A stretch of DNA of 64,000 nt. It comes from Arenimonas sp. SCN 70-307 (GTDB lineage Bacteria > Pseudomonadota > Gammaproteobacteria > Xanthomonadales > Xanthomonadaceae). The DNA lies in contig NZ_MEDO01000014.1 of NCBI RefSeq assembly GCF_001724815.1, forward strand, positions 310,001 through 374,000, written 5' to 3'. The notes beneath the pieces are model-generated. The model had not been told where the DNA came from, searched no databases, and was given only the letters and a program-made list of their open reading frames with translations. Shown here one piece after another: positions 17,524-37,978 of the stretch. Numbering within the stretch: the stretch's first letter is position 1; the number at the start of each line of letters is the position of its first letter. Position numbers and translations under genes: made by a program.

Positions 17524-18213
17524 TCAGGCCGGGCGGGGCTTGCCCTGCTCGGCCAGGGTCAGCGCGACCTTGTCGCGCAGGTAGGCCGGCTCGACGGCGT
17601 CGGGCGCCACGGCCTCGCCACGCTGGAAAGCGCGCACGGCCAGGCGCGCCAGGTCGTCGGCGCGCGGCAGCGCGCTGGCGTCGAAGCCCTTGAGCGACTC
17701 GCCCAGGCGCGCCACGAGGGCGCCGTTTTCGGCCGAGAACCCCGTGCCCACGCCATGCACCGCGGCTGGCGGCAACGGCGCCCCGGCTGGCGGGCAAAGC
17801 ATTTCATCCCCCGCCGGGCTGACCAGGCCGTCGGCCTCGCGCACGAAACGACCGACATAGACCTCGCCCATGCGCGCGTCGATGGCGGCGAAGATCGCGT
17901 CGCCCTCGCCCTGCATCGCCAGCGCGGCCAGGGTGGAGACCGGCAGCACCGGGCGATCAAGCGCCAGCGCCAGGCCCTGGGCGATGGCGATGCCCAGGCG
18001 CACGCCGGTGAACGCGCCGGGGCCGCGGCCCACGGCGATGGCATCGAGCTGCGACTTGCGCAGGCCTGCGCCGGCCAGCAGCTCTTCGGCCCAGGGCAAC
18101 ACCAGCTGGGTGTGCCGGCGCGGCGCGAGCTCGTGGCGCAGCGCGAGCGCGCCGTCGTCGTAGAGCGCGACCGAGCAGGCTTCGGTGCTGGTTTCGATGG
18201 CCAACAGCTTCAC
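17524..18213 (-). CDS. tsaB: tRNA threonylcarbamoyladenosine biosynthesis protein TsaB
   Basis: 229 residues, GTG start. ASKHA-type fold with LLAIETSTEACSVAL, RHTQLVLPW and GRGPGAFTGVRLGIAIAQGLA. Partner of TsaD in making t6A37 on ANN-decoding tRNAs, essential in most bacteria. The GTG overlaps the yoaA stop (GTGA). The yoaA-tsaB pair is the same as in E. coli. Confidence 0.94.
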   Translation of the reverse strand: MKLLAIETSTEACSVALYDDGALALRHELAPRRHTQLVLPWAEELLAGAGLRKSQLDAIAVGRGPGAFTGVRLGIAIAQGLALALDRPVLPVSTLAALAMQGEGDAIFAAIDARMGEVYVGRFVREADGLVSPAGDEMLCPPAGAPLPPAAVHGVGTGFSAENGALVARLGESLKGFDASALPRADDLARLAVRAFQRGEAVAPDAVEPAYLRDKVALTLAEQGKPRPA

Positions 18214-20282
18214 GATGCTTCCCCGGCTTGCGACGGCGTCTCGTCGCCGGGCGATTGTGCGGCAAAGAAGGCCTGCACGTCCGCGACCTCGCGGGTGCGC
18301 GGGAACGGCGGCAGGCTGGCCAGGAAGCTGCGGCCATAAGGTTTGGACACCAGGCGCGGGTCGCACAGCACCAGCACGCCGCGATCGGCGTCGCTGCGGA
18401 TCAGGCGGCCCACGCCCTGCTTGAGCGCGATCACGGCCTGCGGCAGCTGCTCGTCGCGGAAGGGGTTGCCGCCGCGGCGGCGCACGGCTTCGAGCCGCGC
18501 CTCGAGCACCGGGTCGTCGGGCGCGGCGAAGGGCAGGCGGTCGATGACCACCACGCTCAGGGCCTCGCCGGCGACGTCCACGCCCTCCCAGAAACTGGCC
18601 GCGCCCAGCAGCACGCCGTTTCCCGATTCGCGGAAGCGCTCGAGCAGGGTGTTGCGCGGCGCGGTGCCCTGCACGAACAGCGGCCAGGGCGAATCGGCCA
18701 GGGCCTCGGCGGCCTGGCGCAGCGCGCGGTGCGAGGTGAACAGCAGGAAGGCGCGCCCGCCCGAAGCCTCGAGCACGGGCCACGCCGCATCGAGCACGGC
18801 GTCCACGTAGTCGCGGCTGTTGGGCTCGGGCATGTGCCGCGGCAGGTAGCACAGCGCCTGGCGGGCCCAGTCGAAGGGGCTGGGCTGGAGCAGCTCGCGC
18901 GGCTCGTCCAGGCCCAGGCGGCGCGAGAGGTGCTCGAAATGCCCGTCGACCGCCATCGTCGCCGAGGTGAAGATCCAGGCCGCGCGGCTCTGCTCGCGAT
19001 AGCGCCGCAGCGGCCCCGACACATCCAGCGGCGTGCGCTGCAGCATGAAGCCACGCTGCGTCAGCTCGTACCACGCCACGTCAAAAGAAACGGGGTCAGG
19101 TTCACTTCCCGGGGAAGAAAGGGGGTCAGGTTCACTTTCGCGGGCAGCCACGTCGGGATGCCCGTCACCCTCGTCCGAAAGTGAACCTGACCCCCTTTCT
19201 TCGCTTTCATCGCCGAGCCATTTGGCGAGGCGACGGCGCAGTTCGGCGGTGCGGTCGCCCAGGGTGGCGAAACCGGGCGAGGCGTCGGAGAGCGGGCCGA
19301 GCACGCGCTGCAGGTCGGCGAGGGTTCTCGCGAGGTGCTGCAGCGCCGGCAGGGTTTTCTCCTGCGCCAGCAGGCGGGCGCGCGGGCCGCGCTGGGGCAG
19401 GCCTTCGAAGGCCAGGCGCGCATCGCGCATGGCCTGCTCGAGCGCGCGCGCCGGTCCCATCACGCTGGCCAGCGAGGCGGTGACGTTCTTGCACTCGGCC
19501 AGCGCGTCGCGGGCCAGGTCGAGCAACTGGCGCGCGCCCAGGCCCTCGCCGAAGAACTGCGAGGCCAGCTCGGGCAGCTGGTGCGCTTCGTCGAGCACGA
19601 AGGCCGAGGCGCCGGGCAGGATTTCGCCGAAACCTTCCTGCTTGATCGCCAGGTCGGCCAGCAGCAGGTGGTGGTTGACCACCACCAGGTCCGCCGCCTG
19701 GGCCTGCTGGCGCGCCTTCGCGACGAAGCACTCGTCCCAGAACGGGCATTCGCTGCCCAGGCAGTTGTCGCTGGTGGAGGTGACCTGCGGCCACAGCGGC
19801 GAGTCCTCGGCGATGTCGGCCAGCTCGGACAGATCGCCGCGCATCGTGCGGCCCGACCAGGCCACCACGCGCTGGAACTGCGCCACGACTTCGCGCGACT
19901 GGAACTTCTCGCCCTTGGCCTGCTCAAGCCGGTACAGGCAGAGGTAATTCGCGCGCCCCTTGAGCAGCGCCGTCTTGAGCCCCGCGCCCAGCGCCTCGCG
20001 CACGCGCGGCAGGTCGCGGTGGTAGAGCTGGTCCTGGAGCGCGCGGGTGCCCGTTGAAATGATCACGCGCTGGCCGGAAAGCAGCGCCGGCACCAGGTAG
20101 GCATAGGTCTTGCCGGTGCCGGTGCCGGCCTCGGCCACGAGCGTGGCGCGGTCCTGCATGGCCTGCGCGACCTCGCGCGCCAGGTGCTGCTGCGCCTCGC
20201 GCGGCGCGTAGCCGCCCAGCCCCGTCGCCAGCGGGCCGTCGGCGGCCAGCGCGGCCTGGGTGCGTCCGGCGAGGTCGTCCAC
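18210..20282 (-). CDS. yoaA: ATP-dependent DNA helicase YoaA (DinG/XPD family) with in-frame repeat insertion
   Basis: 690 residues against about 636 in E. coli. Superfamily 2 iron-sulfur helicase: Walker A GTGTGKT (53-59), four cluster cysteines Cys115, Cys174, Cys179, Cys185, DEAH at 231-234, late motif GVGRLIRSDADRG. YoaA works with the replisome chi subunit in repair of stalled forks. Residues about 362-399 are not helicase sequence: they are the translation of an inverted repeat (19087-19199) inserted in the linker before VAWYELT, reading RGSGSLS...SEPDPLS...SEPDPVS. GTG start adjacent to the upstream lipoprotein stop. Confidence 0.93.
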   Translation of the reverse strand: MDDLAGRTQAALAADGPLATGLGGYAPREAQQHLAREVAQAMQDRATLVAEAGTGTGKTYAYLVPALLSGQRVIISTGTRALQDQLYHRDLPRVREALGAGLKTALLKGRANYLCLYRLEQAKGEKFQSREVVAQFQRVVAWSGRTMRGDLSELADIAEDSPLWPQVTSTSDNCLGSECPFWDECFVAKARQQAQAADLVVVNHHLLLADLAIKQEGFGEILPGASAFVLDEAHQLPELASQFFGEGLGARQLLDLARDALAECKNVTASLASVMGPARALEQAMRDARLAFEGLPQRGPRARLLAQEKTLPALQHLARTLADLQRVLGPLSDASPGFATLGDRTAELRRRLAKWLGDESEERGSGSLSDEGDGHPDVAARESEPDPLSSPGSEPDPVSFDVAWYELTQRGFMLQRTPLDVSGPLRRYREQSRAAWIFTSATMAVDGHFEHLSRRLGLDEPRELLQPSPFDWARQALCYLPRHMPEPNSRDYVDAVLDAAWPVLEASGGRAFLLFTSHRALRQAAEALADSPWPLFVQGTAPRNTLLERFRESGNGVLLGAASFWEGVDVAGEALSVVVIDRLPFAAPDDPVLEARLEAVRRRGGNPFRDEQLPQAVIALKQGVGRLIRSDADRGVLVLCDPRLVSKPYGRSFLASLPPFPRTREVADVQAFFAAQSPGDETPSQAGEAS
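19087..19199. repeat. In-frame inverted repeat (GGGGTCAGGTTCACTT family) inside yoaA, with an extra half unit
   Basis: A 24-bp arm at 19117-19140 and its exact complement at 19176-19199 flank a 35-nt spacer that itself holds CGGGCA/TGCCCG. A third copy of the core, in direct orientation to the first arm, lies at 19087-19107 with no perfect mate nearby; it could pair with the right arm with one mismatch. The whole block keeps the yoaA frame. Confidence 0.95.
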
Positions 20283-29249: not shown

Positions 29250-29744
29250 ATGCGCCAAAAGAAGTTCCTTCTCTCCTTCGCCCTCGCCGCCCTGGTGGCG
29301 GGTGCCGCCTCCGCCCAGCAGTTCTCTTCGCTCGAGGAGCGCATGACCGAGGCCGAGTTCAAGGCCGCGGGCCTGGACAAGCTCTCGCCGGAGGAACTGG
29401 CGCGCCTGAACGCCTTCGTCGCCGGCCAGAACGCCCAGGCCGCGCAGTCGGCCGGCGTGGTGCCGGGCGCGACCCCGGCGGCCGACACCCGCGGCTTCTA
29501 CCAGCGCAGCGGCCCGCAGGGCGAGATCATCACCTCGATCACCGGCGAGTTCCGCGGCTGGTCCGGCGCCGGCACCCGCTTCGAGCTCGACAACGGCCAG
29601 ATCTGGGAGACCACCGACTCCTCGACCCGCCTGGCGGTGAAGCTGACCAACCCCGAGGTCATCATCGAGCCGGGCGTTCTCGACTCGTGGTACCTGCGCG
29701 TGGCCGGCTACAACACCCGCGCCAAGGTCCGCCGCATCAAGTAA
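29250..29744 (+). CDS. Small secreted protein of unknown function
   Basis: 164 residues. Signal peptide MRQKKFLLSFALAALVAGAASA, then SLEERMTEAEFKAAGLDKLSPEELARLNAFVAG, a helical segment seen in a number of Xanthomonadales hypothetical proteins, and a C-terminal beta-rich part (ITGEFRGWSGAGTRFELDNGQIWE). I do not recognise a named domain with confidence. ATG 29250 is preferred over ATG 29218 because it opens the signal peptide, although neither has a good ribosome site; TAGACT at 29203-29208 is a plausible -10. Divergent from relA; overlaps the hrpA stop by 8 bases. Confidence 0.75.
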   Translation: MRQKKFLLSFALAALVAGAASAQQFSSLEERMTEAEFKAAGLDKLSPEELARLNAFVAGQNAQAAQSAGVVPGATPAADTRGFYQRSGPQGEIITSITGEFRGWSGAGTRFELDNGQIWETTDSSTRLAVKLTNPEVIIEPGVLDSWYLRVAGYNTRAKVRRIK

Positions 29745-32700
29745 GCGACTGCAGCTGGCGCGCCAGCCGCTTGGCCGAAACCTGGCGGCGGGTGCCCAGT
29801 TCCTGCGCGAACAGCGACACGCGCAGTTCCTCCAGGTCCCAGCGCAGCGATTGCCAGGCCGGTTCGCCGGCCCGGCCGTCCTTGCGCGCCTGCACCAGCG
29901 CGTCGCTGAAGGGCTTGAGCTCGAGCATGCGCGCCTGGTCGCGCACCGGGTCGCGCAGGGCGCGTTCGGCGCGCAGCTGCAGCGCCTTCAGGTAACGCGG
30001 GTATTCGGCCAGCGCCTCGGGCGGCGTGGCGCGCAGGAAGCCCGGCGGCACCAGGCCCGCCAGCTGCGCCTGCAGGTCGTCGAGATTGCCGCGGGCCCAG
30101 CCCAGCAGCGGTGATTCGAGCCGCGGCTTGATCTCCGCCACCAGCCCCAGGATCTGCTCGGCCAGCTGCAGGCGCTGCATGGCCTCGGGGAACAGCCTCT
30201 TGCCCGCGTCCTGCACGCGCGCCTCGAACGCCGCCGGCGTGCGGACGTGGCCCAGCTCGCCTTCGGTGACCGCCGACAGCGCGGCCTCGGCCAGGTCGGC
30301 GCGCAGGTGTTCGTGCGCCGGGCCCTGCCCCGGCTGCTGCTGGAAACCTTCGATGGCGGCGTACAGCAGCGCCAGCTTGGGCGACACCGGCAGCTGCTTG
30401 CGGGCCTGGCGCAGCTTGTCGGCCAGGGCGATGTGCAGCAGGCGGCGCACGCCGGCCGCGTGCTCGCGCGCGGCCTCGGCGCGGTCGGCGAACACGCTCA
30501 GCGCCACCGACTCGCCCTGGTCGACCAGGGCCGGGAAGGCCGGCACGCCGGCGGCGCCCGGCACCTGTTCGGGAATGGCTGCGTCGGGGAAGCGCAGCAG
30601 GCCGTCGCGCGCCAGCTGTTCGCCGGCGCGTTCGGCGAAGGCGGCTTCGGCGCGCTCGCCGAAACGCGCGCGCAGGGCGGCGAGGTCGCGGCCCATCGCC
30701 AGCACGCGGCCATCGCGTTCGGCCAGGCGCAGGTTCATGCGCAGGTGCGGCTCGAGCGCGGCCTCGTCGAAGTCGAGCGCGGTCACGGGCACGCCGGTGG
30801 TCTTGCCCAGGAAGCGCGCCAGCGAACCGGGCAGTGCGTCGGCCTCCGGGCGCGGATGCGCCTCGACGAAGGCGCGGGCGAAGTCGGGCGCGGGCACGTA
30901 GTTGCGGCGCAGGGCCTTGGGCAGGCCGCGGATGAGCGCGGTGGCCTTCTCCTCCACCAGGCCGGGCACCAGCCAGCCCAGGCGCGAAGCGTCGAGCGCC
31001 ATCAGCAGGTGCAGCGGCACGTCGAGGGTGACGCCGTCCTCGGCGTGGCCGGGCTCGAAGCGGTATTGCAGCGCCAGGCGCGCGTCGCCCAGGGCGAAGT
31101 ACTTGGGGAAGCGCTCGGCCTCGCTGCCCTCGCCCGGCAGCAGCTCGGCCAGCGGCCATTCCATCGACTTCTTCTGCTCGGGCGCCAGCTTGCCGTACCA
31201 GCTGTCGAGGCCGGCGACGGAGTTGAGGTCGGGCGGCAGGCGGTCGAGGTACCAGCGCGCCTGCCAGTCCTCGTCGGCGACCAGGCCGGCGCGGCGCAGC
31301 TTGGCTTCTTCTTCGCGCGCCTTGTCGAGCGTGGCGAGGTTGCGCTTGAGGAAGGTGGCGCGGCAGTCCACTTCGCCCGGCACCAGGCCCTGTCGAACGA
31401 ACAGCTCGCGCGCCTCGGCGGGGTACAGGCCGCCGTAGTGCACGGGTTTCTTGGGCGCCAGCACCAGGCCGAACAGGCTGATCAGCTCGCTGCCGATCAC
31501 GCGGCCCTGGCTGCGCGACCAGTGCGGGTCGAAGTGCTTGCGCGCCAGCAGGTGCGGCAGCTCGGCGACGACCCAGTCGGGTTCTATCTTCGCGGCCATC
31601 AGGCCCCAGACCTTCTGGGTGTCGAGCAGCGTGGCCACCAGCACCCAGGGCGGCGGCTGTTTGGCCAGCGCGCTGCCGGGGAAAAGCTGGAACCTGCGCT
31701 GGCGCGGCGCGTCGTACAGGCCCTTCTCGGTGCGGTGGCCGATCTGCGTGGGCAGGCCCGCGATCAGCGCCCGGTGCAGGCTCCGGTACCGCGCAAGAAG
31801 GGGGTCAGGTTCACTTCTCCTGCCCGCGGGCCGGTCTTGCCGGGGATCGGACCACGAGAAGTGAACCTGACCCCCTTCTTGCCCGCCCCAGCCCATTTCC
31901 TCGCAGGCCAGCAGCAGCTGGCGGTGCAGCTCGCGCCACTCGCGCATGCGCAGGAAGGACAGGAAGCGCTTCTCGCACCAGGTGCGCAACTTGGACTGGG
32001 TCAGGTCCTCGTGGGCGACGCGGTAGGCCTCCCAGAGCTTGAGGATGCCGACGAACTCCGACTGCGGATCGGCGAACTCGGCGTGGGCGTTGTCGGCCTT
32101 CTCGCGCGCGTCGGAGGGACGCTCGCGCGGGTCCTGGATACCGAGGAAGCTGGCGACCACCAGCACTTCGGCCAGCACGCCGTGGCCGCGGGCGGCCACC
32201 AGCATGCGCGAGAGCTTGGGGTCCACCGGCAGGCGCGCCATCTCCCGGCCGATGGGCGTGAGGCGACGCTCGGCGTCCACCGCGCCGAGCTCGCCCAGGG
32301 TCTGCCAGCCGTCGGCGACGGCGCGCGGGTCGGGCGGGTCGATGAAGGGGAAGTCCTCGACGCGGCCCAGGCCGAGCGAGAGCATGCGCAGTATCACGCC
32401 GGCCAGCGAGGCGCGAAGGATTTCCGGGTCGGTGTAACGCGGCCGCGCGGCGAAGTCGTCCTCGCCGTAGAGGCGATAGCACACGCCGGCGGCGATTCGT
32501 CCGCAGCGGCCCTTGCGCTGGTCGGCGCTGGCCTGGCTGATGGGCTCGATGTGCAGGCGGTCGAGCTTGCCGCGCGGGCTGTAGCGCTTCACGCGCGCCA
32601 GGCCCGGGTCGATGACGTAGCGGATGCGCGGCACCGTGAGCGAAGTTTCCGCCACGTTGGTGGCCAGCACGATGCGCCGGCCCGGTCCGGGGTTGAACAC

Positions 32701-33774
32701 CTTGTCCTGGTCGCGCACCGACAGCCGCGCGTACAGCGGGATCACCTCGGTGGCGCGGTACTTGCGGCGGTTGAGCGCCGCGTGCGCGTCGCGGATCTCG
32801 CGCTCGCCGGGCAGGAACACCAGGATGTCGCCCTGCGGGGCGAGGCGGGTGATCTCGTCGGCCGCGGCGACGATGGCTTCCGCCAGCGGCAGCTCTTCAG
32901 AAACGGGGTCAGGTTCACTTCTCCGGTGCGGTTGGCTGGTCCCCGAGGAATCAGGCCCGGATAAGTGAACCTGACCCCGTTTCTCCTCCCGCTGTCCCCG
33001 TCCAGGGGTGAAGTAGCGGACTTCGACGGGAAAGCCGCGGCCCTCGACGTTCACCACGGGGGCGTTGCCGAAGTGCTTCGCGAAGCGCTCGGTGTCGATG
33101 GTGGCCGAGGTGATGACCAGCTTGAGGTCGGGCCGGCGCGCCACCAGCTGCTTGAGATAGCCGAGCAGGAAGTCGATGTTGAGGCTGCGCTCGTGCGCTT
33201 CGTCGACGATGATCGTGTCGTACTTCGACAGCCAGCGGTCGGACTGGATTTCGGCCAGCAGGATGCCGTCGGTCATGAACTTGATGGCGGTGTCGTCGCC
33301 GACGTTCTCGGTGAAGCGCACCTGGTAGCCCACCGCGCCGCCCAGCGGCACCTGCAGCTCCTCGGCCACGCGCCGCGCCACCGCTCTCGCGGCGATGCGG
33401 CGCGGCTGGGTGCAGCCGATCAGGCCGGCCGCGCCGCGACCGGCGGCCAGGCACAGCTTGGGCAGCTGGGTGGTCTTGCCCGAACCGGTCTCGCCGGCCA
33501 CGACCACCACCGGATGCTTGCGGATGAGCTCGACAAGCGTGTCGGCCTCGCGTGCCACCGGCAGTGCGTCGTCGAAGCTCGGCGTGGGCAGGCGCGCGGC
33601 GCGGGCCTCGCGGGCGGCTATCGACGCGGCCAGCGCGGTTTCGTAGGCCTCGCGCTTGCCTACGTGCCCCGGCGCCTTGCGAACGGCGTCGAGCAGCCGC
33701 AGCAGCCGCCCACGGTCGCGGCTGAGCACGGCGTCGGCGGGAAACGGGGTCGGGCGGGCCGTTGGATCGGACAT
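29737..33774 (-). CDS. hrpA: ATP-dependent RNA helicase HrpA with two in-frame repeat insertions
   Basis: 1345 residues against about 1300 in E. coli. DEAH-box helicase: Walker A GETGSGKT (94-101), DEAH in IIVDEAHERSLN, SATIDTERF, and QRKGRCGRIAAG (motif VI), followed by winged-helix, ratchet and OB regions and the long HrpA-specific C-terminal part. It rescues stalled ribosomes on mRNA. Two segments are foreign: residues about 264-292 (GQVHLSGPD...SEPDPVS, from 32899-32984) and about 632-661 (GQVHFSWSD...SEPDPLL, from 31794-31881). Both lie in variable linkers, and catalytic motifs are intact. Start MSDPTARP chosen over an upstream frame extension that would reach into the dps promoter. Confidence 0.95.
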   Translation of the reverse strand: MSDPTARPTPFPADAVLSRDRGRLLRLLDAVRKAPGHVGKREAYETALAASIAAREARAARLPTPSFDDALPVAREADTLVELIRKHPVVVVAGETGSGKTTQLPKLCLAAGRGAAGLIGCTQPRRIAARAVARRVAEELQVPLGGAVGYQVRFTENVGDDTAIKFMTDGILLAEIQSDRWLSKYDTIIVDEAHERSLNIDFLLGYLKQLVARRPDLKLVITSATIDTERFAKHFGNAPVVNVEGRGFPVEVRYFTPGRGQREEKRGQVHLSGPDSSGTSQPHRRSEPDPVSEELPLAEAIVAAADEITRLAPQGDILVFLPGEREIRDAHAALNRRKYRATEVIPLYARLSVRDQDKVFNPGPGRRIVLATNVAETSLTVPRIRYVIDPGLARVKRYSPRGKLDRLHIEPISQASADQRKGRCGRIAAGVCYRLYGEDDFAARPRYTDPEILRASLAGVILRMLSLGLGRVEDFPFIDPPDPRAVADGWQTLGELGAVDAERRLTPIGREMARLPVDPKLSRMLVAARGHGVLAEVLVVASFLGIQDPRERPSDAREKADNAHAEFADPQSEFVGILKLWEAYRVAHEDLTQSKLRTWCEKRFLSFLRMREWRELHRQLLLACEEMGWGGQEGGQVHFSWSDPRQDRPAGRRSEPDPLLARYRSLHRALIAGLPTQIGHRTEKGLYDAPRQRRFQLFPGSALAKQPPPWVLVATLLDTQKVWGLMAAKIEPDWVVAELPHLLARKHFDPHWSRSQGRVIGSELISLFGLVLAPKKPVHYGGLYPAEARELFVRQGLVPGEVDCRATFLKRNLATLDKAREEEAKLRRAGLVADEDWQARWYLDRLPPDLNSVAGLDSWYGKLAPEQKKSMEWPLAELLPGEGSEAERFPKYFALGDARLALQYRFEPGHAEDGVTLDVPLHLLMALDASRLGWLVPGLVEEKATALIRGLPKALRRNYVPAPDFARAFVEAHPRPEADALPGSLARFLGKTTGVPVTALDFDEAALEPHLRMNLRLAERDGRVLAMGRDLAALRARFGERAEAAFAERAGEQLARDGLLRFPDAAIPEQVPGAAGVPAFPALVDQGESVALSVFADRAEAAREHAAGVRRLLHIALADKLRQARKQLPVSPKLALLYAAIEGFQQQPGQGPAHEHLRADLAEAALSAVTEGELGHVRTPAAFEARVQDAGKRLFPEAMQRLQLAEQILGLVAEIKPRLESPLLGWARGNLDDLQAQLAGLVPPGFLRATPPEALAEYPRYLKALQLRAERALRDPVRDQARMLELKPFSDALVQARKDGRAGEPAWQSLRWDLEELRVSLFAQELGTRRQVSAKRLARQLQSLT
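31794..31881. repeat. In-frame inverted repeat inside hrpA (downstream copy)
   Basis: Perfect 26-bp arms (31794-31819 and 31856-31881) with the GGGGTCAGGTTCACTT core, around a 36-nt spacer unlike the spacers of the other copies. Arm ends read CAAGAAG before the core and CTC after it, both matched in the partner arm. Confidence 0.96.
32899..32984. repeat. In-frame inverted repeat inside hrpA (upstream copy)
   Basis: Perfect 22-bp arms (32899-32920 and 32963-32984), core preceded by AGAAAC, around a 42-nt spacer. In the other hrpA copy the corresponding bases are AGAAGG; here the C is matched by a G in the partner arm, i.e. the pairing is conserved although the base differs. Confidence 0.96.
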
Positions 33775-33862
33775 ATAACGCCATTCTAACGTCGGGGCGT
33801 ATTCATCCGATGACTGCGGCCGCTGTTGTAGGATGGGAAACACAGTCAACGAGGAGTCCGAA

Positions 33863-34381
33863 ATGGCATCGAAGACCAAGAAGCCCGCCCCCAAGGCCGA
33901 CGGCGCCCCCAAGATCGACATCGGCATCTCCGACAAGGACCGCCGCAAGGTGGCCGACGAGCTTTCCGCCTTCCTGGCCGACAGCTACACGCTCTACCTC
34001 AAGACCCACCAGTTCCACTGGAACGTGACCGGGCCGATGTTCAACACCCTGCACAACATGTTCATGACCCAGTACACCGAGGAGTGGACGGCGCTGGACG
34101 AGATCGCCGAGCGCATCCGCGCCATCGGTTTCCTGGCGCCCGGCTCCTACGCCGAGTTCGTGCGGCTCTCGTCGATCAGGGAAGAGCAGTCGCCCGACGC
34201 GCTGGACTGGCGCGGCATGGTGCGCCAGCTGGTGACCGGCAACGAGGCCGTGTGCCGCACCGCGCGCAAGGTGATCAAGGTGGCGAACGCGGCCGGCGAC
34301 GACCCTAGCGTCGACCTCGCCACCCAGCGCCTGCAGGTGCACGAGAAGAACGCCTGGATGCTGCGCTCGCTGCTCGAGTGA
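33863..34381 (+). CDS. dps: Dps family ferritin-like DNA-protection protein
   Basis: 172 residues. A Lys-rich tail (MASKTKKPAPKADG), which in Dps helps DNA binding, is followed by the four-helix core with the ferroxidase motif THQFHWNVTGPMFNTLHNMF...EEWTALDEIAERIRAIG. Dps shells store iron, consume H2O2 and compact DNA under starvation or oxidative stress. GAGGAG at 33850-33855 supports ATG 33863. Divergent from hrpA; 88 bases of intergenic sequence with no clear OxyR site by eye. Confidence 0.93.
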   Translation: MASKTKKPAPKADGAPKIDIGISDKDRRKVADELSAFLADSYTLYLKTHQFHWNVTGPMFNTLHNMFMTQYTEEWTALDEIAERIRAIGFLAPGSYAEFVRLSSIREEQSPDALDWRGMVRQLVTGNEAVCRTARKVIKVANAAGDDPSVDLATQRLQVHEKNAWMLRSLLE

Positions 34382-36087: not shown

Positions 36088-37926
36088 ATGAGCTCCCCCG
36101 CCCTCGACCTCCTGCGCCGCGTCTTCGGCCATGCCGACTTCCGCGGCGAGCAGGCCGCCGTGGTCGAGCAACTGGTGGCCGGCGGCGACTGCCTGGTGCT
36201 GATGCCCACCGGCGCCGGCAAGTCGCTGTGTTACCAGGTGCCGGCGCTGCTGCGCGAGGGCACCGGCATCGTCATCTCGCCGCTGATCGCGCTGATGCAG
36301 GACCAGGTCGAAGCCCTGCGCCAGCTGGGCGTGCGCGCGGCCTGCCTGAACTCGGCGCTGGCCGGCGACGAAGCCGCGCGGGTGGAGGCCCAGCTGCTGG
36401 CCGGCGAACTCGACCTGCTCTACGTGGCGCCCGAGCGCCTGCTCACCGACCGGTTCCTGTCGCTGCTCGACCGCATCCACGTGGCCCTGTTCGCCATCGA
36501 CGAGGCGCACTGCGTCTCGCAGTGGGGCCACGATTTCCGCCCGGAGTACCGCCAGCTCGACGTGCTGCACGCGCGCTGGCCGGCGGTGCCGCGCATCGCC
36601 CTCACCGCCACCGCCGACCACCCCACGCGCCGCGAGATCGCCGAGCGCCTGGGCCTGCAGGACGCGCCCTGGTTCGTCACCTCCTTCGACCGCCCCAACA
36701 TCCGCTATCGGGTGGTGCTCAAGGACGATGCGCGCCGCCAGCTGCTCGATTTCCTCGAGGACCACCGCGGCCAGGCCGGCATCGTCTACTGCCTTTCGCG
36801 CCGCAAGGTCGAGGAAACCGCCGAATTCCTCGCCTCGCGCGGCATCGAGGCCCTGCCCTACCACGCCGGCCTTGACGCGGCCACGCGCGCGGCCAACCAG
36901 CGCCGCTTCATCCGCGGCGAAGGCGTGGTGATGTGCGCCACCATCGCTTTCGGCATGGGCATCGACAAGCCCGACGTGCGCTTCGTGGCGCACCTGGACC
37001 TGCCCAAGTCGGTCGAGGGCTACTACCAGGAAACCGGCCGCGCCGGCCGCGACGGCGACCCGGCCGAGGCCTGGCTCTGCTACGGCCTGGGCGACGTGGT
37101 GACCCTGGGCCAGATGATCGCCCAGTCGGGCGCGGGCGAAGAGCGCCAGTGGCTGGAGCGGCGCAAGCTCGACGCGCTGCTGGGCTACTGCGAGTCGACC
37201 CGCTGCCGGCGCCAGCTGCTGCTGGGCGCCTTCGGCGAGCAGCACCCGGGCGGCTGCGGCAACTGCGACAACTGCCTCGACCCGCCGCGCACCTGGGACG
37301 GCACCGTGGCGGCGCAGAAGGCGCTCAGCTGCGTTTACCGCACCGGCCAGCGCTTCGGCGTCACCCACCTGGTGGACGTGCTGCGTGGCGCCGACACCGA
37401 CCGCATCCGCCAGCTGGGCCACGACCAGCTGAGCACCTACGGCATCGGCACCGAACTCGACGCGCGCCAGTGGAAGGGCGTGTTCCGACAGCTGGTGGCG
37501 ATGGGCCTGCTGGAAGTGGACCTCGAGGGCCACGGCAGCCTGCGCCTGACCGCCGACAGCCGGGCGGTGCTGCGCGGCGAAAAGCCCGTGGCCCTGCGCG
37601 AGGAGGTGGTGCGCCGGCGCGAACGCGGCCGCGGCCGCGGCGCGGCGCCGGGCAGTGGCGCCAGTACGGCACCGACGCCCGCCGTGCCCCTGTCGGCCGA
37701 CGACCTGCCGGTGTTCGAAGCCCTGCGCCAGCTGCGCTCCGAGCTGGCGCGCGAACTCTCGCTGCCGCCTTACATGATCTTCCATGACGCCACCCTGCGC
37801 GCCATCGCCGAGCAGCGCCCGGCCAGCCTCGACGCCCTCGCCCGCGTCGGCGGCGTCGGCGCGGCCAAGCTCGAGCGCTACGGCGAGCAGGTGCTGGCCG
37901 TGCTCCGCGACGTCGAGACGGCCTGA
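36088..37926 (+). CDS. recQ: ATP-dependent DNA helicase RecQ
   Basis: 612 residues. Walker A PTGAGKS (40-46), DEAH (138-141), motif [12 protein letters not shown], a four-Cys zinc site ([11 protein letters not shown]...CGNCDNC), winged-helix RQC domain and C-terminal HRDC (about 530-612). Unwinds DNA in RecF-pathway recombination. Same length and domain set as E. coli RecQ. Followed after 11 bases by a palindromic repeat. Confidence 0.96.
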
Positions 37927-37937
37927 ACGGCCAGTCC

Positions 37938-37978
37938 GGGGACAGGTGCAATTTCCGCAGGAAATTGCACCTGTCCCC
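37938..37978. repeat. Short-loop palindrome (GGGGACAGGTGCAATTTCC) after recQ
   Basis: Perfect 19-bp arms around GCA. Related to the repeats inside yoaA and hrpA (15 of 18 core positions shared). Not followed by a T-run on either strand, so not a standard terminator. TAAACT (37979-37984), a possible -10 for the lpxR-like gene, begins right at its edge. Confidence 0.95.

Follow-up and report, generated by a model that had tools for sequence, protein, structure and literature searches.

REPIN-like palindromes read in frame in yoaA, hrpA and icmF of Arenimonas, with arms that change in concert between species

The window, i.e., the whole stretch of 64,000 nt analysed, lies on contig C14 of the genome of Arenimonas sp. 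SCN 70-307 (G000; 2.93 Mb, 35 contigs); other G numbers denote further genomes of the genus (27 genus genomes). The gene yoaA, encoding a DNA repair helicase, occupies positions 18210–20282 of the minus strand. Its 690-aa ORF reaches 857 bits against NCBIfam NF053712 (cut-off 680) and contains the Pfam domain Helicase_C_2. Lysobacter, Xanthomonas and Stenotrophomonas are among the best matches in named genomes (62–65% identity), and the top match (69%) belongs to a MAG. Within the gene lies a palindrome at 19114–19202. Arm 1 (19114–19140, plus strand) contains the REP unit AAGAAAG-GGGGTCAGGTTCACTT, the interior spacer (19141–19175) is 35 nt long, and arm 2 (19176–19202, minus strand) is the exact complement of arm 1. 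The preliminary description had given the spacer length and the in-frame reading correctly, while its 24-bp arms were measured here as 27 nt of perfect pairing. The extra half unit reported beside the palindrome is also present, with the boundaries moved from 19087–19107 to 19085–19107: it is a single REP unit on the plus strand, a direct repeat of arm 1 at a distance of 30 nt, and its core spans 19092–19107. The coding strand runs through the palindrome with no stop and reads as ERGSGSLS-DEGDGHPDVAARE-SEPDPLSS-PG-SEPDPVS, abbreviated ERGSGSLS...RESEPDPLSSPGSEPDPVS. The RNA hairpin has a minimum free energy of -69.1 kcal/mol (z -6.8).

The interval between the DEAH and SAT motifs is occupied in DinG and XPD by the Arch domain. 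In YoaA, the palindrome-encoded segment sits between DEAH (residues 231–234) and SAT (440–442), both of which are invariant in the alignments. In a profile alignment of YoaA with DinG (6fwr), the linker segment stays unaligned.

Two more in-frame palindromes of the same kind are found in hrpA, the gene for an ATP-dependent RNA helicase (29737–33948, minus strand, ORF as listed; TIGR01967, 1406.6 bits for 29740–33849). The hrpA2 palindrome (31790–31885) has cores at 31801–31816 and 31859–31874, and the hrpA1 palindrome (32899–32984) has cores at 32905–32920 and 32963–32978; both were recognised by core matches and the gene test. Another palindrome, with 19-nt arms and a 3-nt loop, belongs to a second REP family (GGGGACAGGTGCAATTTCC) and lies at 37938–37978, 12 nt past the end of ORF 36088–37926, which we take to be recQ-like. 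In a comparison with named RNA families, the one hit in the window at or above the gathering score is a tRNA.

The preliminary description had suggested a count of the core through the complete genome. With at most one mismatch, G000 contains 105 copies of the core GGGGTCAGGTTCACTT (54 + 51) versus 0 of the reversed pattern; the window holds nine matches (seven exact, two with three mismatches) versus 0.23 expected. The DNA was read around 56 clusters, which hold 100 of the 105 cores, and the REP unit is AAGAAA-S-GGGGTCAGGTTCACTT, arranged chiefly in inverted pairs. Of 39 two-unit pairs, 37 have a symmetric S base; therefore, the two arms are not independent. The palindromes of G000 (n = 42) fall into 30 of 37–67 nt and 12 of 73–76 nt, with none of 68–72 nt. 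Within the size-locked class of 12, the interiors resemble one another slightly more than shuffled sequences do (0/300 shuffles as high), a point for whole-unit copying. A chance palindrome or an assembly error is ruled out by the copy number and by the recurrence in other genomes. Outside chromosomes, viral contigs gave no exact inverted-pair match when at most 30 nt were allowed to separate the cores, a pattern that covers only the shorter-spaced copies, and plasmids gave one weak 41-base match located outside the palindrome.

The family is linked to a transposase. In G000, a gene of the IS200-like Y1 transposase family (C10:17220–18078) stands between inverted REPs, two on each side. Its product reaches 51.6 bits against PF01797 (cut-off 23), as a Y1 transposase should, and 65.5 bits (E 4.5e-18) against the NCBIfam RAYT equivalog NF047646, which is under the cut-off of 80; a search by sequence for relatives with solved structures returned none at E 0.01. 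G019 has one transposase gene (C40) with the same REP family as G000. G021 has two, each with its own REP family, GGGGACAGGTGCATTT at C16:12404 and GGGGTCAGGTTCACTT at C16:18924. No transposase was found to adjoin the arm family of G026, where two of the four transposase loci were examined, or that of G020, where two of three were.

Three features of REPINs are thus present in the G000 family: over-represented inverted pairs of one short repeat (105 copies), a preferred distance between units with a variable spacer, and the same repeat beside a RAYT-type gene (G000 C10, G019 C40 and twice in G021 C16). Two features of classical REPs are absent. A single unit does not fold on itself as an imperfect palindrome (0 to -0.5 kcal/mol, no more stable than shuffled sequences), and the unit, AAGAAASGGGGTCAGGTTCACTT, carries neither GTAG nor CGTC at one end. 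The yoaA element is REPIN-like, consisting of two short repeats inverted around a spacer, and its repeat family is associated with an IS200-like (RAYT-type) transposase. The segment had been claimed to be a foreign element, and a repeated, transposase-linked palindrome standing in frame in a variable linker agrees with this.

Bacterial genomes are mostly coding, yet, by a test of open frame and third-position G+C with set thresholds, just 4/56 clusters in G000 and 3/39 in G021 lie inside genes; hence, the REP clusters strongly avoid genes. The four sites in G000 are yoaA, hrpA (twice) and an icmF-like fused mutase/GTPase gene (C1:153881), whose fragment scores 715.9 bits against a cut-off of 1500 bits, the query being the fragment only. 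The icmF copy of G021 carries another core and was recognised separately. All four copies in G000 are in frame, belong to the 73–76 nt class and have the second arm read as SEPDP.

The gene yoaA was read in 20 of the 27 genus genomes. Two-armed palindromes of at least 21 nt are present in seven of them (G000, G021, G019, G026, G002, G020 and, with an N gap, G011), with the arm cores GGGGTCAGGTTCACTT in G000, G019 and G002, GGGGACAGGTGCATTT in G021, GGGGTCAGAGTCAATT in G011, TACCAGGTTCATTTTC in G026 and GGGGTCAGAGCCCGATTT in G020. The palindrome is decayed in G016, reduced to a single arm in G012 and cut by contig ends in G022 and G010; G004 and G013 have a longer linker with no palindrome. In G003, a 98-nt palindrome lies in a broken frame. 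This palindrome (L058) resembles the repeat flanking the transposase of the same genome (L083), and the linker length in the assembly is not a multiple of three. Linkers of 10–11 codons occur in 5/20 genomes, all outside the clade that holds the palindromes (G005, G008, G009, G018 and G025), and G006 has a palindrome-free linker of 22 codons.

The segment had been expected to be missing from most relatives, and, beyond a single clade, none of the yoaA homologues read carries it at the linker. Eleven homologues (G006 and ten from other genera) have linkers of 22–52 codons with no inverted repeat longer than 9 nt. Since palindrome-free linkers of this length stand at the same place in other genera, extra linker length alone should not be taken as proof of insertion, and, with long linkers common in the family and the order, the short yoaA linker need not be ancestral. 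When the stretch was scanned in 80 named relatives, an inverted repeat of at least 14 nt was found in three, by offset at motif III or at the 3′ end, outside the linker. In Duganella sacchari (L154), a palindrome with 37-nt arms starting with AATCCGGGGTCAG lies at an offset of about 1948 nt in the yoaA stretch, right after the yoaA stop codon, which suggests that GGGGTCAG repeats may extend beyond the family of the source organism.

The other three sites show a similar, patchy distribution. In a tree of HrpA built without the insert columns, and without G020, G011 and G003, the rows with two-armed REP palindromes at these sites all fall into one clade of 12 (SH-aLRT 100). Occupancy inside the clade is patchy: two-armed palindromes are lacking in hrpA1 of G019, G022, G011, G016, G013 and G002 (one arm left in the last), in hrpA2 of G019, G011, G016, G004, G010, G013 and G002, and in icmF of G013, G016, G002 and G004. 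Outside the clade, the icmF linker has 8–11 codons in 7/22 genus genomes, of which one yielded no reading among the 22. A different in-frame palindrome with 18- and 17-nt arms and a 12-nt loop occupies the hrpA2 site in L281 (G005) and L273 (G017), and hrpA1 of G017 has one REP-like arm. The yoaA insert looks old rather than recent.

The arms of the in-gene palindromes were compared in sets chosen for a recognisable palindrome and hence biased to pairing, a bias that the cross-species and permutation controls offset only partly. In 27 palindromes, the arms are complementary at 382/405 positions, compared with 0.764 when arms are crossed between species at the same site, and 0/10,000 permutations reach the observed value. 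This count leaves out one-armed, out-of-frame or very short-loop copies and those cut by contig ends or N: yoaA and icmF of G011; yoaA, hrpA2 and icmF of G012; icmF of G004 and G019; yoaA of G022 and G010; hrpA1 of G002; G003; G017; and the different palindromes that G005 and G017 have at the hrpA2 site. Among the palindromes of exactly 74 nt picked by the script (n = 14), 13/20 pairs have changed on both sides; 0/500 shuffles do as well, and controls with slid arms collapse. CAG-to-CTG distances range over 61–67 nt, with 64 nt in 16 of the 27, and each site keeps to one length class modulo 3 (yoaA 63/66, hrpA1 61/64, hrpA2 64 and icmF 64/67 nt).

The arms also agree between genes of one species. 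In 31 rows (the 27 palindromes with G011 yoaA, G011 icmF, G012 hrpA2 and G019 icmF added), an identical 14-nt core is shared by 18/29 pairs from the same species and different genes versus 10/105 pairs from the same gene and different species (0/20,000 permutations). The core TACCAGGTTCATTT of G026 has 12 copies, eight of which belong to the four gene sites. G020 has 51 copies of its core TACCAGGTACATTT, and 9/19 of the listed inverted pairs have 49–50 nt between core starts, while the three hrpA-fragment pairs have 56 nt. The bases inside the core are TTTTTCCGG in hrpA versus TTTTCA in most other copies read. The outer REP core thus follows a family of the genome, and the inner stem and the spacing stay.

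The interiors behave differently from site to site. Those of different genes within one species are not alike. Interiors at the same site are more alike than random ones (0/3000), owing to icmF (0/3000) and hrpA1 (60/3000); in icmF, the interior (GKGKK) is inherited while the arms change. The likeness at yoaA and hrpA2 is no more than chance (1237/3000 and 1417/3000), and because of this it cannot be told at these two sites whether the arms were overwritten or the element was lost and inserted again.

Intergenic copies offer a parallel. Orthologous places in the DNA of G021, which was fetched in part, were paired with 24 of the 56 G000 clusters (32 unpaired): nine hold the same family, nine have a palindrome from a different family (the yoaA and hrpA sites account for three), one has a nested palindrome and five have none. 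At the level of species, orthologous places are thus occupied in one and empty in another. Some intergenic copies enclose terminator-like stems. One such stem, orthologous between G000 (C24:34316) and G021 (C9:99049), has AGGCCCGC and GCGGGCCT in both species, but the two species differ in the arms (GGGGTCAGGTTCACTT versus GGGGACGGGTGCATTT). At C1:336565 and C6:59170 of G021, family 2 arms enclose a decayed family 1 palindrome. In G000, a family 1 element adjoins a family 2 remnant at C14:600906 (16 nt, clear) and at C14:342905 (8 nt, weak). Different arms on a shared stem and the nested or adjacent palindromes are the reason for keeping a tentative reading, which we would not call likely, that REP arms may move without the spacer, the system writing its own ends, on both sides at once, onto standing hairpins or linkers.

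For the in-gene copies, the best explanation, somewhat more likely than not, is that old in-frame REPINs in yoaA, hrpA and icmF had their ends later rewritten to the current REP family of the genome. It builds on what was directly observed: the repeat and its copy number, the transposase link, the in-frame position, the shared sites, the covariation of the arms and their concerted change across genes. Points against it are the patchy occupancy within the clade, the different palindrome at hrpA2 of G005 and G017 outside it, the yoaA and hrpA2 interiors, the long palindrome-free linkers of other genera, the loci of G026 and G020 at which no transposase adjoins the arm family, the likeness of the size-locked interiors in G000 and the RAYT score under the cut-off. 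A REPIN-like element would have landed in frame in the YoaA linker, which separates helicase motifs II and III. The landing was probably in the common ancestor of at least 12 species that form a clade and, as we infer, was a single insertion. Similar elements would have reached hrpA (two) and icmF. Both REP arms would then have been overwritten together by the current REP family of each genome, the spacer and the reading frame being left in place; the route may have been conversion at an extruded or single-stranded hairpin, or the transposase. The linker peptide is presumably made and tolerated, and the insertion site would be an interdomain linker. The hairpin may also have a function in the mRNA, which this explanation does not require.

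The main alternative, less likely but still deserving attention, is that REPINs are lost precisely and that whole new REPINs of the current family re-insert at the same few sites, their target being a remnant palindrome or a permissive linker. Such a course would agree with the nested and remnant palindromes (G021 C1:336565 and C6:59170; G000 C14:600906 and C14:342905), with the patchy occupancy within the clade and with the yoaA and hrpA2 interiors, which are not inherited. However, the icmF interior is inherited despite the arm change, the length class modulo 3 is constant at each site, and the hrpA copies of G020, with their 56 nt against the commonest 49–50 nt, are not whole copies of the commonest form. 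Selection for mRNA or DNA structure, keeping the hairpin as a means of ribosome slowing or as a translation-coupled attenuator, for example, appears improbable: the hairpin is very stable, and some intergenic copies enclose terminator-like stems, but the palindrome is absent or decayed in members of the clade (yoaA of G004, G013 and G016), and structure alone leaves unexplained why unrelated genes of one species have the same arm sequence. The family-wide variability of the linker in length and sequence, with long palindrome-free linkers in other genera, might suggest an ordinary, fast-evolving disordered linker bearing a chance palindrome. The 105 copies of the core refute this, the arm covariation and concerted change speak against it, as does the location of all three inverted repeats in the 80 named relatives outside the linker, and we regard it as highly improbable.

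Several elements of this picture are known from other systems. In the part of PMC3116915 available to us, Pseudomonas REPINs are inverted REP pairs with preferred spacing and a less conserved spacer of conserved length; compensatory stem changes, a link to a tyrosine transposase (RAYT) and a mostly extragenic location are also described, and in SBW25, 14/1,067 of the most abundant 16-mers overlap genes. The elements studied here share with them the inverted pairs, preferred spacing, variable spacer, compensatory stem changes, tyrosine transposase and mostly extragenic location. Unlike the REPs described there, single units here lack an imperfectly palindromic structure and do not fold on themselves, and some copies are coding and common to orthologous genes of many species.

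Insertion into genes also has precedents. The preliminary description had pointed to Rickettsia palindromic elements, which, according to the accessible text of PMC10969869, are about 150 bp long, encode a conserved peptide and lie in frame in unrelated genes. The likeness of an in-frame palindrome in unrelated genes holds; here, however, the elements measure 73–76 nt from core to core, and the peptide varies with REP family and species. The closest precedent in the sources available is that of intragenic REPs in DNA repair and RNA helicase genes. Di Nocera 2013 (PMC3733652), in the portion available, reports GTAG/CGTC REPs within ORFs, with dimers encoding 20–30 residues. Many of these REPs occur in genes for DNA repair (UvrABCD, RecBCD) and some in genes for RNA helicases; in recB, two Xanthomonas species carry different REPs at nearly the same position. 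In contrast to these REPs, the unit here has no GTAG- or CGTC-tagged stem-loop; compared with what that text sets out, orthologous sites are tracked here through a clade, and the arms of three genes change in concert.

Different REP classes at the same place beside orthologous RAYTs of related strains are described in the accessible part of Nunvar 2013 (PMC3686654); that turnover lies beside the transposase gene, whereas the turnover seen here affects sites within host genes and involves both arms and several loci in step. In Nematomorpha mitochondria, perfect inverted repeats are kept in translated genes, and their arms encode conserved protein regions (PMC6649704, abstract); the abstract names no dispersed repeat family, while here a dispersed bacterial repeat lies in a linker. 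Intragenic REPs in repair and helicase genes, REP class change beside RAYTs and in-frame palindromes of Rickettsia are thus already in print, judging from these partial texts. Within published literature (preprints being outside the scope), and as far as abstracts and excerpts extend, no account was found of clade-wide concerted symmetric arms in genes, nor of this unit type, of four coding sites tracked through a clade or of an inherited icmF spacer.

These sites bear on how REPINs spread and on what the transposase does to the DNA. Orthologous coding sites serve as fixed witnesses: with position and length class fixed by the reading frame as the ends change, arm replacement becomes separable from insertion. 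If the tentative reading of arms written onto standing structures were true, the targets would be decayed REPINs, terminators or coding linkers, the elements would not be copied units but layers added to sites already present, and a genome-wide switch of REP family would rewrite the protein linkers of several genes in step. The sites suggest that a repeat population may keep editing the linkers of helicases and a mutase over species-level time.
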